This document shows, piece after piece, positions 3,756 to 36,290 of a DNA stretch of 42,006 bases. The notes beneath the pieces were generated by a model. It made no database searches, was not told the DNA's origin, and was given only the letters and a program-made list of their open reading frames with translations. Each line of letters starts with the position of its first letter. The first letter of the stretch is position 1. The stretch spans positions 1 through 42,006 of the IMG/VR virus record IMGVR_UViG_3300010938_000317; one strand, 5' to 3'. The translations under genes were made by a program, and so were the position numbers. Source of the stretch: a virus.

Positions 3756-4796
3756 TCAGGATGCGACTGCCGCCTCAGAGAGCGCCACGAACCAGCCCCA
3801 GCCCTGGACGCTCCCTGGGTGTTTGCCTCGCCGGCGCAGATCGAGCAGCCAGTCGCCGATGCGCTCCGGGCTCATCCCGTGAGCCTCCAGCAGCCGCCGG
3901 CATAGCGCCTCGTCTGGCGGGCCGAGCGCGGAAGCCCGTCCGTCCATCCAGTCGCAAAGCATGCGACCGACCACCGCGACCGCCAGCTCGCTCTCCGTGC
4001 GCGGCTGCGGTGGCGCTCTCCTCTGCCGCGGCTCCATCGACCGGCGCTCGGCGAGGATGGATATGGCCTGTCTTGGGTCTGTCAGCGGCGGCGACACAGC
4101 ACTGCCAGTCTGCTGTGCCTTGCCTGGCGAGATTTCCACAGGTTTTTCCACATGTTTAAGCGGCGGCGGCGCATCTGTGGGGGGTAGGGGGGTGTTGGGG
4201 AGTTTACGCGCCGCTGAAGTAGAGGTAATGGTAGAGGTAATAGTAACGCTGACATTGTCATTCCAATTCCCGGGAATTGTCGTGACAATGTCACGAGATT
4301 CGTGTGAATGTGTGAAGTTTCTCGTGACATTGTCAGGACGTTTTCCTGACAATGTAATGGAATTGTCCTGACAATGTACTGGAGACGTCGTTACATTGTC
4401 GTGGCGAGGTCGCGATGATGGTGATGCATCGCTGTGGCGTCCGCCGTCATCGTCCCGGATTTGCGGTGGCGGCGGAATGCGGCTTGATCTCTCGTTCGGG
4501 TGGATAGGCTGATGGCGTTTGAATGTGCGAATTTGTATGTAACTGTGACCGCAGGTCTGGTAGCGGATGATGTAGTTGGCGGATGCGAGCATCTCCAGCC
4601 AGCGGCGCACGTCGTCGATGATGCCATCGTCTCGGTACGGCCAGATGCTGCCGGCGATCATCATTGGTGAGTCCAGCAGGCGACCCTCACGGTCCGCGAG
4701 CGACCAGAGCCCGACGAACAGGAGGCGGGCGCCGTCCGGCATGCGGCCCAGATCCGGGTCGTCCCAGAACTCGGCTTTGATCACCCTGCTCCTCAT
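3756..4796 (-). CDS. Phage replication initiator (replisome organiser-like), gene contains iterons
   Basis: A 346-residue protein. Residues 1-100 (MRSRVIKAEFWDDPDLGR, ARLLFVGLWSLADREGRL, a WPYRDDGI stretch, then QTCGHSYIQIRTF) match the winged-helix N-terminal domain of phage replisome-organiser/lambda O-like proteins, which bind origin repeats. Residues about 105-230 are a low-complexity linker with repeated D-N-V-T units encoded by the iterons at 4250-4401. The C-terminal quarter (GWGWFVALSEA) may contact a helicase or loader, as is typical of the family. The ATG at 4796 overlaps the previous stop (ATGA). No helicase or primase gene was found, so host replication proteins are probably recruited. 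As in lambda O, the origin seems to be inside the initiator gene. Confidence 0.75.
   Translation of the reverse strand: MRSRVIKAEFWDDPDLGRMPDGARLLFVGLWSLADREGRLLDSPMMIAGSIWPYRDDGIIDDVRRWLEMLASANYIIRYQTCGHSYIQIRTFKRHQPIHPNERSSRIPPPPQIRDDDGGRHSDASPSSRPRHDNVTTSPVHCQDNSITLSGKRPDNVTRNFTHSHESRDIVTTIPGNWNDNVSVTITSTITSTSAARKLPNTPLPPTDAPPPLKHVEKPVEISPGKAQQTGSAVSPPLTDPRQAISILAERRSMEPRQRRAPPQPRTESELAVAVVGRMLCDWMDGRASALGPPDEALCRRLLEAHGMSPERIGDWLLDLRRRGKHPGSVQGWGWFVALSEAAVAS
4132..4152 (+). promoter_or_regulatory. Two DnaA-box-like sites beside the iterons
   Basis: On the plus strand ATTTCCACA (4132-4140) and TTTTCCACA (4144-4152) lie 12 bases apart. The second matches the DnaA box consensus TTWTNCACA fully, the first misses one base. 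They sit about 100 bases from the iteron cluster, inside the initiator gene. The phage also encodes a DnaA domain IV-like protein (5437-5697), which makes the sites more interesting. Confidence 0.45.
4250..4401. repeat. Iteron cluster, putative replication origin
   Basis: Six copies of an 11-base near-palindrome occur in 152 bases: TGACATTGTCA at 4250 and 4325, TGACAATGTCA at 4283, TGACAATGTAA at 4347, TGACAATGTAC at 4369, and TTACATTGTCG at 4391. Two extra AATTGTC half-sites are at 4275 and 4361. The copies alternate in orientation, are 22-42 bases apart, and lie in a local AT-richer stretch. They are inside the coding region of the initiator, as in the lambda origin. Confidence 0.7.
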
Positions 4797-5107
4797 TGCA
4801 CATCCTCCCATGCCTCCTGCTCACGCAGATCCTCGATGGCTCCGAGGACAAACCGGGCGGCCTCTTTGACGTGGCCGGCCGCTATCCTGATGCCTATCAA
4901 TACTCCGTCGGGGCGATCTGGCAGCCGCCTGACCTGCCTGTCGGCCTCGTCCAGGTAGTTCAGCGCGTCCAGCGCCTCCTCGTAGCATTCGATGAGCGGG
5001 TGCTTTCCGGAGAACGGCGCGTCATCATCCATGCCATTGCGCTCTCGAAACTTGCGCCATTTTTCCCTCCTGTCATGCTCGATTTTCTCGTATGGTGACG
5101 GTCTCAT
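4793..5107 (-). CDS. Hypothetical protein
   Basis: A 104-residue, charged, largely helical protein (KIEHDRREKWRKFRERNG at the start; CYEEALDALNYLDEADRQV in the middle). The ATG at 5107 has AGGAGA six bases upstream. It overlaps the initiator start by ATGA, so the two are probably translationally coupled. I recognise no family. Its position next to the initiator would suit a replication accessory, but nothing in the sequence proves it. Confidence 0.6.
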   Translation of the reverse strand: MRPSPYEKIEHDRREKWRKFRERNGMDDDAPFSGKHPLIECYEEALDALNYLDEADRQVRRLPDRPDGVLIGIRIAAGHVKEAARFVLGAIEDLREQEAWEDVQ

Positions 5108-5158: not shown

Positions 5159-5440
5159 TTAATCGGCAGATCCATCGATCTCCTCTGCTAGGTCAGTGCT
5201 CGCATCCACGCAGACCCACACTCGACCGGTGTATCTGTCGATCCGCCAGCATGGGCGGAATTGACGCCTGTGGCAGGCGTTGATGTAGTCTGCGACCGTG
5301 GCGCGCGCTAGCGCCTCGTTGGAGCAATAGCGCAGGCCGCTCTCGGCCCATGTGAGCGATGCTCCGCCTGTGCCCTCCCACCGGACCACCCATGGATGGC
5401 GCGCGAGCACGTCTTCCCATGTCTGATGATTGCGTCTCAT
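5159..5440 (-). CDS. Hypothetical protein
   Basis: A 93-residue protein starting MRRNHQTWEDVLARHP, with many Trp residues (W8, W15, W18 and others) and a central CSNEALARATVADYINACH segment. It overlaps the stop of the DnaA-like gene by ATGA. No family is recognised. A short gap of 51 bases separates it from the next gene and shows nothing beyond that gene's ribosome binding site. Confidence 0.6.
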   Translation of the reverse strand: MRRNHQTWEDVLARHPWVVRWEGTGGASLTWAESGLRYCSNEALARATVADYINACHRRQFRPCWRIDRYTGRVWVCVDASTDLAEEIDGSAD

Positions 5441-5697
5441 GTCGGCCTCCTGTCTGTGCGCAACAGCGCAAGTATCGTGGTGTGGTGCCGCCCGCCGAGA
5501 GCCATGCCGATCTCGCGCAGGCTGTAGCCGCACTCGTAGAGGTACCGCGCGATCACTCGGCGAGCCGCGGACAGCCTCCGGCTGCGCTGGCAGCCCGTGA
5601 TCTCCTGGGGCACCAGCCCGAAGCGCTCCGCGGTCTCGGCGATGATGCCGCGGACGGAGCCGTAGCGGTATTCGGGGTGGCGTGGTTCAATGCTCAT
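5437..5697 (-). CDS. DnaA domain IV-like DNA-binding protein
   Basis: An 86-residue protein resembling the C-terminal (box-binding) domain of DnaA: a GSVRGIIAETAERFGLVPQE helix, then RSRRLSAARRVIARYLYEC, then SLREIGMALGGRHHTTILAL. The last part matches the DnaA signature around the GGRdHsTV motif. There is no AAA+ domain, so it cannot load helicase by itself; it could bind DnaA boxes at the phage or host origin. The start is ATG 5697, because GGAGGT stands five to six bases upstream; the ATG at 5709 is also in frame. That ribosome binding site lies inside the last, degenerate CRISPR repeat, which directly abuts this start codon. Confidence 0.75.
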   Translation of the reverse strand: MSIEPRHPEYRYGSVRGIIAETAERFGLVPQEITGCQRSRRLSAARRVIARYLYECGYSLREIGMALGGRHHTTILALLRTDRRPT

Positions 5698-6094
5698 TTC
5701 GACCTCCATGAAACTTCCTGTGCTTGCTGCGACCCAGGTAGACGCTTTCTCGCGCCCTGGTCACGCCGACATCTCGCACTCCATGAAACTTCCTGTGCTT
5801 GCTGCAACGTTTGCAGGTCGGTCTGCTTCTTGTACCCGAACCCCTCGCACTCCATGAATCCTTCCTCGGCTACTGCAACTCGTGCGCGCCGTTTCGCTTG
5901 GCGTCGAGTTGCTCTCGCACTCCATGAATCCTTCCTCGGCTACTGCGACCGCGGGTGGATTGGATTGCACGACCGCGCTAGCTGCTCGCACTCCATGAAT
6001 CCTTCCTCGGCTACTGCAACAGGCGAAAACGCGGGGCGCACGCGGGGCGGAGGCGCAACTCGCACTCCATGAATCCTTCCTCGGCTACTGCAAC
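5698..6094 (-). CRISPR. CRISPR array, six 36-nt repeats and five spacers
   Basis: Repeats (minus-strand sense) lie at 6094-6059, 6020-5985, 5949-5914, 5879-5844, 5808-5773 and 5733-5698, with spacers of 38, 35, 34, 35 and 39 nt. Each repeat starts GTTGCAG (GTCGCAG in two) and, except the last, ends TTCATGGAGTGCGAG, so the ends can pair through UUGCA/UGCGA. The four copies nearest the Cas12-like gene are identical except one base. The next has a different middle, and the last is also altered at its 3' end. Orientation follows the gene direction and recalls Cas12f-type repeats, which also start GTTGCAG and end in an ATGxAGxxTGC pattern (from memory). No spacer matches elsewhere in the window were noticed by eye. 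There are no cas1 or cas2 genes, so new spacers could only come from elsewhere or by recombination. Confidence 0.93.
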
Positions 6095-6151
6095 AGCCTC
6101 TCGCAAACTCCAATCGCTGCAATGCCGTGCGACCAGGTTTGCGAGAGGCTG
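6094..6151 (-). ncRNA. Array-proximal inverted repeat: candidate leader hairpin or tracr-like RNA
   Basis: A perfect 15-bp inverted repeat (6094-6108 with 6137-6151; arm CAGCCTCTCGCAAAC on the plus strand) flanks a 28-base loop and touches the first repeat. There is no U-tract, so it is not a normal terminator. In the transcript the upstream arm contains CUCGCA, complementary to the UGCGAG at the 3' end of the repeats, and just before the first repeat TTGGAGTTTGCGAG echoes the repeat end. It could be a leader structure, a tracrRNA-like partner or a processing signal. No RNA evidence is available. Confidence 0.45.
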
Positions 6152-6166
6152 CCATTTATTCGCCTT

Positions 6167-6502
6167 CTACCTGCCCTTTTTTATATGGGCGCTCGCGCCA
6201 GCATCGGCTTGCGCGCTCTCGATGGCTTTCTGCGCACGCTCGGCAGCCTCGCTGCCCGCGAGCTGCCGCCAGAGCGGCACCAGTTCCTGCTTCGGTACCT
6301 CAAGCGTCCGCGCCAGCCGGAACGCCAGCGCCATGCGATTGGTCTCGGCGCTGTAGCGGCCGCTTCCGATGCGCAACAGCTTGATCGCCATGTTGGCTTT
6401 TTCCATCGTGTCGTCGTCCATGTGCCCGCTGAAAATCGCCTCAATGTCGGTCAATCCGCGGCGCGCGATGGCATCCAGTTCGCTCGTCGAGATAATGCTC
6501 AT
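6167..6502 (-). CDS. Small helical protein between effector and CRISPR array
   Basis: A 111-residue protein, predicted almost wholly helical (SELDAIARRGLTDIEAIF, ANMAIKLLRIGSGRYSAET, ALAFRLARTLEVPKQEL, GSEAAERAQKAIESAQA). Its start overlaps the effector stop by ATGA, so the two are made together, and it ends 72 bases before the first repeat. I recognise no family. It does not look like Cas1, Cas2 or Cas4. By position it may assist the effector or guide RNA, or it may be just another small early protein. Confidence 0.7.
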   Translation of the reverse strand: MSIISTSELDAIARRGLTDIEAIFSGHMDDDTMEKANMAIKLLRIGSGRYSAETNRMALAFRLARTLEVPKQELVPLWRQLAGSEAAERAQKAIESAQADAGASAHIKKGR

Positions 6503-7761
6503 CGTTCGGTCTCCTTGATCTGGTGTGTGATCTCTCGCAGGGCTTCCCTGCGCTTCTTGGCCTTGGCTGAGCGGCGGCGGAGCTCACTCTCAGCCGCCCG
6601 CTCGCCGGGCTCAGTGGTCACGTCAGCGCCGGTCGCGACGCTGATGCCATGCTGCTCGGCCTTGTAGGCGAGCAACTGGCGGAACTGCGCAGCAGGCCAC
6701 GTCAAAGCGCCAATCTCGGCGATCTCGATCGTGCCCACAAGCTGCGATCGGCACCACTGCACAATCTCGGCCGTCCAGCGGTGCAGAAAGTCGTTGAGCC
6801 AATCATGCCAGCCGAGGCGCGCGATCGCCTCGCGCTTGCGCCGGGCGTGCCCCTTGCGACGTCCGCATTGCGCCAGCACGCGGCGGCGGATCAGCTCCCA
6901 CTCGTCCGATCGCCGCAGCAAGTGCTGGTAGCGGTCGGTGAAGCATTTGGTTTGCGTTTCGGTGCGCACCAGGAATCTCCCGTCCTGCGTGATCGAGATC
7001 ACGGCTCGGCGCTCTCCCGGCGGAGGCAGCGCTGGCAGCGCCAGCGGGTAGGTGATCCGCACCGTGATGCCGCGCCGCTCGACGTGCACGGTGGCCTTTT
7101 TCATCGAGATTTCCCAGCACAGCATCTTGTCGAGGATCGGCCCTTGCCACTCGTCGCGCGCGGAGCCGCGCTTGACGGGGATCTCGATCCATGAGCCGCG
7201 CGGGTCTTTGTTCGATCGAGCGCGCAACCGCACAACGTACTCGTCGCCGCGCTTCACGAGCTGGACGCCGGAGTCCTCGCGCTTCGCCTTGCCGGTGACG
7301 GACAGAGCAGCATCTGGTCGCCATTCGGGCAGGGGCGCGCCGGCGATGATGCGCTTGCCCTCGCGCGTCCAGACACCCTGCACCTCCATCTCGGCGGCGC
7401 TATAGGCGTCGCCGGAAAGCTCGCCCTTTTCCCGCTGACGCACCTCTTTGCTCGGGGCGGCCTTGTCATCTGGAGCACTCGGAGCCGTCCAGCCGTATGC
7501 CTGCGCCCATTTCGCGCGCAGCATCATGTTGCGGTAGTGGGCTGCTTGCCAGCCCAGATCTCTGAGCTCCTGGTACAGCTCTCGGTGCGAAGGAATGGAC
7601 CAGTCCAGCGCGGCCCGCAGAGCGAGCACGCGCTGGACGATCCTGGGCTCCCTTCCGGGAGCCTCGGCCGATTGTTGCGCTGCCACGTCACACGGCGGGT
7701 GCGAACCGCCTCGCGACATAGTCAGATCATGGTCGACGTTTGGCGCTATCGGCAAAGCCAT
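6499..7761 (-). CDS. Hypercompact TnpB/Cas12-like effector, RuvC probably inactive
   Basis: A 420-residue protein with the layout of TnpB/type V-U effectors. Residues 41-92 are helical (IPSHRELYQELRDLGW); 137-240 are beta-rich, like a wedge/OB domain ending in a KATVHVERRGITVRITY strand; 252-266 (RAVISITQDGRFLVR) is at the RuvC-I position; 294-312 form a basic bridge-helix-like segment; 323-350 include NDFLHRWTAEIVQWC and TIEIAEIGAL, with E349 at the RuvC-II position; 355-375 (FRQLLAYKAEQHGISV) matches the conserved stretch before the target-nucleic-acid finger. T258 stands where Asp is expected. After T382-T383 there are no CxxC pairs and no RuvC-III Asp, so cutting is unlikely. The ATG at 7761 has GGAGGG five bases upstream. 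No TnpA or transposon ends are present. It lies ten bases after a VRR-NUC gene and one small gene before the array. The assignment rests on motif reading alone. Confidence 0.8.
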   Translation of the reverse strand: MALPIAPNVDHDLTMSRGGSHPPCDVAAQQSAEAPGREPRIVQRVLALRAALDWSIPSHRELYQELRDLGWQAAHYRNMMLRAKWAQAYGWTAPSAPDDKAAPSKEVRQREKGELSGDAYSAAEMEVQGVWTREGKRIIAGAPLPEWRPDAALSVTGKAKREDSGVQLVKRGDEYVVRLRARSNKDPRGSWIEIPVKRGSARDEWQGPILDKMLCWEISMKKATVHVERRGITVRITYPLALPALPPPGERRAVISITQDGRFLVRTETQTKCFTDRYQHLLRRSDEWELIRRRVLAQCGRRKGHARRKREAIARLGWHDWLNDFLHRWTAEIVQWCRSQLVGTIEIAEIGALTWPAAQFRQLLAYKAEQHGISVATGADVTTEPGERAAESELRRRSAKAKKRREALREITHQIKETER

Positions 7762-10937: not shown

Positions 10938-11821
10938 CGCCGCGCCTCCTCGATGCTGTCCTCGCCTAGCGCCCCGGAGATCAGGTCAGCCTCCGGCGCC
11001 GTCCGCGGAGCAGGCACCTGATCGGTCTGCGGCTCGGCGACCTCGACCTCGATCACATCTCCAGTTGCAAGCGGCGACTCTTGCGGCTCTCCGCGATCGG
11101 CGCGCTCATCCTGCTCGATGGCCTGCGCGAGCTCGATCGAAATTGGAAGGTACTTGAAAAGCCGCCTGATGACAGTTTTGAGCGCCATCGCCTCGTAGTG
11201 CGTCTGCCATGGGCCGCTCGTCGCTGCTTTGCTCTGCGCCCTCACGGCCTCGATCTCGCGACGGGACATCACATCGAACTGAATGCCGCCGTCCTTTAGC
11301 TTGGCCACCGCATAAACGAACCGCAGCTTGTCCGGCTGCGTGCGATTGGGATTGTCGAAGTCCGGGATGTGGCTGAGGTCGCTGTCGAGCCCAAACCGCA
11401 CGTCGAATCGATCGCCCTCGTAGACTGCGCGGGCCTCGATGCTCTGGATCTGCCCCGAGCGGCGAGCCAGATCGATCATGCCGCGGTAGCCGATGATAAA
11501 CTGCACCTCGGTGCGGCCAGCTTTTCGGTTCTCAAACGGGACCAGGTAGGCATGACCCAGGGTCCCTCCTGGCTCAAGCCCGAGTTGGGCGCATGTCATG
11601 ATCGCGCCCAAGAACGACATCAGATCGCACTTGGCGAGCGCCGGCGTGCGGCGCACTTCCGTCAGCGCCACGCGCGCCAGCCTGTCGGCAGTAACGTGCC
11701 GGGGCAACGCGAGCGCCATCTGCTGTTTGATTTTCGGATCGTTGAGCAGCGCCGCAATGTCGTTGGCGCGGCGCTGCTGGACACTGCCGCCAGTGACGGC
11801 GGCCTTCAGTGCTGTGCTCAT
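10934..11821 (-). CDS. recT: RecT-family single-strand annealing protein
   Basis: A 295-residue protein, close to the usual RecT length. The family signature is clear: MTCAQLGLEPGGTLGHAYLV, then EVQFIIGYRGMIDLARRSGQ (about residues 75-125). It anneals single-stranded DNA for recombination-dependent replication and repair, working with a 5'-3' exonuclease. The YqaJ exonuclease gene lies immediately upstream with an ATGA overlap, giving a complete lambda Red-like pair. The acidic, Pro-rich C-terminal tail (residues 235-295) is typical of the family and may contact partner proteins. Confidence 0.93.
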   Translation of the reverse strand: MSTALKAAVTGGSVQQRRANDIAALLNDPKIKQQMALALPRHVTADRLARVALTEVRRTPALAKCDLMSFLGAIMTCAQLGLEPGGTLGHAYLVPFENRKAGRTEVQFIIGYRGMIDLARRSGQIQSIEARAVYEGDRFDVRFGLDSDLSHIPDFDNPNRTQPDKLRFVYAVAKLKDGGIQFDVMSRREIEAVRAQSKAATSGPWQTHYEAMALKTVIRRLFKYLPISIELAQAIEQDERADRGEPQESPLATGDVIEVEVAEPQTDQVPAPRTAPEADLISGALGEDSIEEARR

Positions 11822-35140: not shown

Positions 35141-36163
35141 TTATGCGCCGATGTTGTCGACGTTGCACTTTGCAACGGCCGTCAGGATGCCGTTGGTGCT
35201 GTGGTATAGCGGCTCGATCTCGCAGTCCACGACAGCGAATCCGTCGGCCTCGGTGAATTCGATCGACCGGACCACGGCGCGATGATAGGTGATCGAGAGG
35301 CTGTTGTTGGTATCGTAGATCAGCGTAAGCGTGGCCGTTCCCTCGGTTTGATTCTGGAGGCGCTGAATTTCCGGCGTCGGCTGGTCCATCATCGCGCGGA
35401 ATTTCAATGTCGCAGCCTGCACGCCAAAGAGGATTCGTCCGGACACGGCCGCCCCGTTTTGCGATCCAGAGCCCGGATAGTAGCCCTGGTCAACCATCAG
35501 GTTGTTCTGCCAGCCAGCCTCCAACGTCAGAAGCCGCCGCGTTGCGATGTAGTCGGTGCCGTGCGCCGCGAAGGTGAGAGAGCCATTTGACAGGAATTTC
35601 TCCGTTAGGGTCGTGGGCAGAGTGATTCCGCTCGGCTGACTGAATCGGCCGCTTCCGACGTACTCGATGGTGATCTTCGAATTCTCGCGCGAGGGGCCGC
35701 TGCCAAGCGTGATCTGCCAGGAATTCACCGCGCAGCCGATGACGGCATAATCAGCCGCTGGCGTTCCGCCCGGGCGGATCTGCGCGACAGTCGTGAAATA
35801 GGGCAGCTCGTCTGCGTCTCCAGCCGTTGGATTCAGGGGGGTGCACGTGTAGGTGAAATTCGGATTTGTTCCGGATTTCACCACCTTTCCCAAGCCGAAT
35901 GCCATCGCCCATGCGGCGATTTCCGCGCTCAGGTATTTCTCTAGCGTCCCGCCGGAGCGCCACGCCGTCAGAAATACCTGCTCAGCGTATGGGTGGCCCT
36001 TGCCATATTCTGCGGCGTCGCTCTCTGTCTGGAGCGTCGGGAGTGGGAGCTGCGCATTGGTTTTGCGCAGCCGCCACATCTGCGCCTCTGTGTTGGCCGT
36101 GGCAATGTTAGTCTGCTTGCGAAACGCCAGGCCGAATTGCTGCTCCTGCATCCTGATCGGCAT
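35141..36163 (-). CDS. Major tail tube protein
   Basis: A 340-residue protein. The sequence (MQEQQFGLAFRKQTNIATAN; NPNFTYTCTPLNPTAGDADE; NSWQITLGSGPSRENSKITI) matches siphovirus tail tube subunits. The start ATG 36163 has GGAGG nine bases upstream; an earlier TTG at 36169 is less likely. It forms the hexameric rings of the tail tube. It overlaps the preceding small gene by 56 bases. The length is larger than lambda gpV, with an extra domain in the second half (MDQPTPEIQRLQNQTEG). Confidence 0.85.
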   Translation of the reverse strand: MPIRMQEQQFGLAFRKQTNIATANTEAQMWRLRKTNAQLPLPTLQTESDAAEYGKGHPYAEQVFLTAWRSGGTLEKYLSAEIAAWAMAFGLGKVVKSGTNPNFTYTCTPLNPTAGDADELPYFTTVAQIRPGGTPAADYAVIGCAVNSWQITLGSGPSRENSKITIEYVGSGRFSQPSGITLPTTLTEKFLSNGSLTFAAHGTDYIATRRLLTLEAGWQNNLMVDQGYYPGSGSQNGAAVSGRILFGVQAATLKFRAMMDQPTPEIQRLQNQTEGTATLTLIYDTNNSLSITYHRAVVRSIEFTEADGFAVVDCEIEPLYHSTNGILTAVAKCNVDNIGA

Positions 36164-36290
36164 TGTCAATGTCCTCCTTCTGGATCACTTGGTGCCAGCC
36201 ATGCGCCATCAGCGGGCTCAGCGCCTCGACCGTGGCCTCCACCTCAATCACCTCGCCCCAGGGGGCGCGCATCAGAACTCTCTCACTCAT
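36108..36290 (-). CDS. Small neck or tail accessory protein
   Basis: A 60-residue protein starting MSERVLMRAPWGEVIEVEAT, with a VEALSPLMAHGWHQV stretch typical of small phage proteins encoded between tail terminator and tail tube. It overlaps the upstream gene by 8 bases and the tail tube gene by 56. Function not known. Confidence 0.6.
   Translation of the reverse strand: MSERVLMRAPWGEVIEVEATVEALSPLMAHGWHQVIQKEDIDNADQDAGAAIRPGVSQAD

Follow-up and report, generated by a model that had tools for sequence, protein, structure and literature searches.

A virus-borne CRISPR array that lies beside a TnpB/Cas12f-like effector carries two spacers whose content can be read: spacer 5, which is well supported as a putative coding-strand piece of an SF1A helicase gene of the UvrD/PcrA/Rep type, and spacer 4, which matches a gene in the tail module of related phages. 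The DNA analyzed here (the window) is the 42,006-base IMG/VR virus record, in which the array occupies positions 5698–6094 and consists of six 36-nt repeats and five spacers of 34–39 nt. We think it somewhat more probable than otherwise that the array and its effector are guided to genes of competing mobile elements, probably binding rather than cutting them, and that spacer 5 represents the helicase of one such rival element.

Architecture of the array and its effector

As expected of a CRISPR array, the locus has regular repeats and unique spacers, and its distal repeat is degenerate (Table 1). We infer that the array sense is the minus strand and that the array is transcribed together with the effector, because the effector and a small open reading frame (ORF) lie upstream, a hairpin abuts the first repeat, and the distal repeat at 5698–5733 has decayed at its 3' end. 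A second locus, L005, follows the same order on one strand, with effector, small ORF, hairpin and array in succession; its equivalent hairpin precedes the array at 11580–11645 (+). The inner sequences of the two hairpins differ, while an outer stem of GCCTCTCGC paired to GAGAGGC is common to both, and the element could be tracr-like or a terminator. The small ORF is without any family match and has counterparts at 11214–11573 in L005 and 11241–11573 in L006, which makes it a candidate accessory gene. Neither Cas1 nor Cas2 was identified, an Rfam search of the locus returned no matches, and the L005 spacers, when searched, also gave none.

Within each of the two arrays (window 5698–6094; L005 11645–11936), the repeats diverge in the middle to about 70% identity and are constant at their ends, and the fixed ends are able to pair, UYGCA with UGCGA. 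Such strongly divergent middles between fixed ends are unusual for a CRISPR array, and the constant ends hint that selection acts on the end stem alone. Elsewhere in the window, imperfect GACATTGTC/GACAATGTC repeats cluster at 4251–4415 within the ORF at 3756–4811 (−), possibly an origin or operator region.

Table 1. Positions of the array components, neighboring genes and target homologue in the window.
Feature	Positions	Strand	Description
Terminal repeat	5698–5733	−	Variant as at 5773–5808, degenerate 3' end (GGAGGTCGAA); overlaps start of ORF 5437–5709
Spacer 5	5734–5772	−	Leader-distal, 39 nt; sense strand reads (Y)VGVTRARESVYL, SF1A helicase motif VI
Variant repeat	5773–5808	−	GTTGCAGCAAGCACAGGAAGTTTCATGGAGTGCGAG; intact 3' end; precedes spacer 5 in array sense
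Spacer 4	5809–5843	−	35 nt; sense strand reads GFGYKKQTDLQ; protospacer near start of tail-module gene in related phages
Main repeat (four copies)	5844–6094 (span)	−	GTTGCAGTAGCCGAGGAAGGATTCATGGAGTGCGAG; starts at 5844, 5914, 5985, 6059
Spacer 3	5880–5913	−	34 nt; weak lead to portal gene 3' end in L040, L072, L073, L074
Spacer 2	5950–5984	−	35 nt; nothing above shuffles
Spacer 1	6021–6058	−	Leader-proximal, 38 nt; nothing above shuffles
Hairpin	6095–6153	−	Directly before first repeat; MFE −48.7 kcal/mol, z −5.4 (hairpin plus first repeat)
Small ORF	6167–6502	−	111 aa; between effector and array; same place in L005, L006
TnpB/Cas12f-like effector	6499–7761	−	420 aa; C-terminal RuvC-like fold, degenerate catalytic positions
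Homologue of spacer 4 target gene	35141–36169	−	19/35 nt at site

The effector resembles TnpB, Cas12u3 and Cas12f weakly in sequence, below curated cut-offs: the NCBIfam guided_TnpB model scored 7.6e-7, under its cut-off, and the PADLOC Cas12 models 3e-4, with Cas12u3/Cas12f as the best. In a Foldseek search, Cas12f and TnpB structures were the best matches (Cas12f, 4e-8) to a low-confidence model of mean pLDDT 50, in which the RuvC-like half mostly reaches 55–86. A C-terminal RuvC-like domain similar to that of Cas12f/TnpB, the feature expected of a type V effector, is thus present. The catalytic positions of this domain, which we presume from known TnpB/Cas12 motifs, look degenerate, and for this reason a loss of nuclease activity is proposed. 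Where the protein aligns without gaps to Cas12f1 (9i8y), the RuvC-II Glu falls opposite Ala348, and the RuvC-III position 387 is E, E and K across three relatives, all of these being weak alignments. This reading, which depends on such alignments and on the low-confidence model, suggests that the effector may no longer cut DNA. The L006 effector is 85% identical to that of the window; none was detected in INPHARED or PLSDB, nor in 46 related records by a search run without a positive control.

A helicase motif in spacer 5

In array sense, the reverse complement of spacer 5 is ATGTCGGCGTGACCAGGGCGCGAGAAAGCGTCTACCTGG, the third frame of which encodes VGVTRARESVYL. This single frame contains the SF1A motif VI, [VI][AG]xTRA with hydrophobic ends; solved proteins carry RLAYVGVTRAMQKLTL (E. 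coli UvrD) and RLAYVGITRAEEELVL (PcrA) at the same place. The preliminary description had read a helicase motif VI from this minus-strand frame, and the motif proves to be of near-perfect UvrD/PcrA/Rep form. Spacer 5 shares with these helicases the VGVTRA motif at the correct spacing and with hydrophobic ends, in a comparison covering just the 12–13 residues known of the source gene, and compared with UvrD and PcrA it has the same VG at motif positions 1–2. Motif VI is usually preceded by Tyr, and the leading bases of the spacer, AT, are compatible with a Tyr codon, TAT, ahead of the motif.

Two lines of evidence point to a helicase origin: i) motif VI itself, and ii) the best match in a blind nucleotide search. 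When spacer 5 was shuffled 2,000,000 times and read in six frames, the short core of the motif arose 2636 times, the loose motif 35 times and the strict motif not once, and a coincidental helicase reading is unlikely even if five spacers and about a thousand recognizable motifs are allowed for. Querying 7.3 Gb of plasmid sequence by blastn returned, as the best match, a UvrD-family helicase gene on a Rhizobium megaplasmid, aligned over 32/38 nt (E 0.01) in the same frame; it was the single match below E 1, the next ones being at E about 2 or worse. The absence of a near-identical source from the searched collections, described below, would fit a spacer taken from some other gene or frame, with the motif arising by accident. 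This we regard as highly improbable in view of the shuffles, of the blind match to a helicase in the correct frame, and of the agreement between the flanking AT and a Tyr codon. The earlier proposals that the spacer was copied from a helicase gene and that its strand, in array sense, equals the coding strand are both upheld by the motif, the shuffles and the in-frame UvrD match; a best nucleotide match in another gene or frame, which had been named as grounds for rejecting them, was looked for, and the plasmid best was the in-frame UvrD gene.

Spacer matches in related phages and the possible source of spacer 5

Spacer 5 had been described as the only spacer with a recognizable motif; spacer 4, however, is also readable. 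A codon-degenerate scan with its peptide, GFGYKKQTDLQ, led to the locus L007, which encodes the identical peptide, and a search with the target gene family recovered 80 related phage loci. The spacer matches 34/35 nt, that is, a mobile-element protospacer, in five IMG/VR contigs (L058, L063, L072, L073 and L074) and 30/35 in three further ones (L007/L066, L065 and L054), against a maximum of 23/35 for the shuffled spacer. These matches establish a tail-module gene of related phages as the predicted target of spacer 4. By gene order it takes the place of the major tail protein; no Pfam family was found for the window or phage copy, and no PHROG for the window copy. The divergence of the window's own copy at this site (Table 1) means that self-targeting is avoided. 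One of the targeted contigs, L072, and the effector relative L006 come from a single metagenome, 3300031950.

The remaining spacers yielded less. Spacer 3 points weakly to the portal gene in related phages: at the 3' end of this gene it matches 20/22 neighboring bases and 23–24/34 overall (L073:720, L072:2114, L074:5422 and L040:4561 (−)), with a segment score of 16, slightly above the shuffled maximum of 15 of 25. Three of these four loci (L072, L073 and L074) also have the spacer 4 target. No match of spacer 1 or 2 exceeded shuffles, and spacers 2 and 3 had no blastn matches among plasmids.

The source of spacer 5 was sought at several levels of stringency. IMG/VR does not contain the exact 39-mer, and no near-identical source was found there or in the GTDB representatives, INPHARED or PLSDB. 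Codon-degenerate patterns for VGVTRARESVYL recovered nothing from IMG/VR or the GTDB genomes, nor did the wider pattern V.VTRARE.[VL]YL from IMG/VR. A still wider pattern retrieved 11 viral UvrD genes, none of them close (23–29/39 nt to spacer 5), a recovery that showed the pattern engine to work. Two other candidates were set aside: 25-nt matches to integrases, the only ones that blastn gave among phages and at E 2 attributable to chance, and self-targeting within the window, where the best site (24/39) is at shuffle level.

A rival phage, a plasmid or other element, and the host chromosome are all possible origins for spacer 5. It would most likely have come from a helicase gene of a competing phage, of a plasmid or of an integrated element, a view drawn from the target of spacer 4, which moves the balance toward competing mobile elements, and from the presence of UvrD genes in 2/36 related phage records (G016 and G018). 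The UvrD-like helicase of G016 (743 aa; L041 12057–14288 (−)) is inserted between tail genes on the opposite strand, in the manner of cargo; the four nearest records contain no UvrD gene. Against a phage source, the closest DNA to spacer 5 is a plasmid-borne helicase gene. This observation and the rarity of UvrD in sequenced phages (57/50,697 records) leave room for a host target, in which spacer 5 would be aimed at a chromosomal helicase and would disable repair or defense during infection. UvrD-family helicases are common in bacteria (12/14 control genomes), and the closest DNA was that of a rhizobial megaplasmid. We nevertheless consider a host target rather unlikely, as neither the peptide VGVTRARExVYL nor a tighter pattern was found in GTDB, searched as 84,980 species with one genome apiece, and spacer 4, alone in having a certain target, hits rival phages. 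The more specific suggestion of host AddAB/RecBCD as the target gained no support: a matching host gene was not found in the GTDB species genomes, and in the comparison with UvrD and PcrA the VG-TRA form fits the UvrD/PcrA/Rep type.

Proposed mode of action and comparison with known systems

For the favored reading, in which competing mobile elements are the targets, a model can be outlined. Array and effector would be transcribed jointly in the minus-strand direction, giving guides with a 5' part ending in ...TGGAGTGCGAG followed by the spacer; these would direct the effector onto genes carried by competing mobile elements, where it would probably bind and block transcription without cutting. 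In array sense, spacers 4 and 5, the two that can be read, both correspond to the coding strand. Guides made from them would therefore base-pair with the template strand, a pattern that two cases do no more than suggest. A fuller version is possible but tentative, and we hold it with more doubt than confidence: a TnpB/Cas12f-like effector, nuclease-dead and served by an array of its own, would silence the structural genes of related phages and the helicases of other elements by template-strand binding, amounting to RNA-guided superinfection exclusion without DNA cutting.

Spacer 5 might contribute nothing to such a system if the distal array is a remnant, since a spacer between two divergent repeats may give no working guide, whatever its source. 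The terminal repeat, which has lost its conserved 3' end and runs into the start of an ORF, is consistent with decay of this kind. The repeat that precedes spacer 5 in array sense, however, retains the conserved ...GGAGTGCGAG end, the copies of the main repeat are uniform, and a match of 34/35 to sampled rivals is still seen for spacer 4, all of which make a remnant improbable.

Through spacer 4, a phage-encoded array with a single effector acquires a concrete target: a structural gene that belongs to sister phages from the same kind of sample. With a 420-residue effector and a known protospacer, it becomes directly testable whether a compact type V system is used by one phage against another. 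The helicase spacer would extend the targets to a second rival element or, alternatively, to an enzyme of host repair or defense.

Several known systems bear comparison. The hairpin abutting the first repeat in the window and in L005 recalls the leader-repeat hairpins of Cas13 systems, which block the first repeat (PMC13187072). Cas12m (subtype V-M) is a compact type V effector that has lost cutting and silences its targets (PMC10442227, PMC11013384), and the subtype occurs on mobile elements (PMC11656645). Its non-cutting silencing resembles the mode proposed here; Cas12m2, however, has 596 aa and an HCCC zinc finger, whereas the window effector has 420 aa and a C-terminal domain without zinc-finger cysteines. 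Nor is Cas12m the closest match to this effector, the PADLOC best being Cas12u3/Cas12f and Cas12m2 ranking only 29 by fold. In the mini-CRISPR arrays of Saccharolobus portogloboviruses, spacers match closely related viruses from the same setting, and, as here, the diverged own copy avoids self-targeting (PMC6858448). In the window, only spacer 4 matches related viruses and not its carrier. Those mini-arrays have 1–2 spacers with repeats of host type and lack a cas gene; the present array, with five spacers and an adjacent virus-encoded effector, is not a mini-array in that sense. The type V-U2 locus of cyanophage vB_AphaS-CL131 shares with the window a phage array of 36-nt repeats and a single TnpB-like effector, with no further cas genes noted there (PMC6293099). 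Its effector is V-U2, while that of the window is placed as TnpB/Cas12f-like by similarity; among its ten spacers, one matched a primase pseudogene from a cyanobacterium, whereas here a spacer matches related phages.
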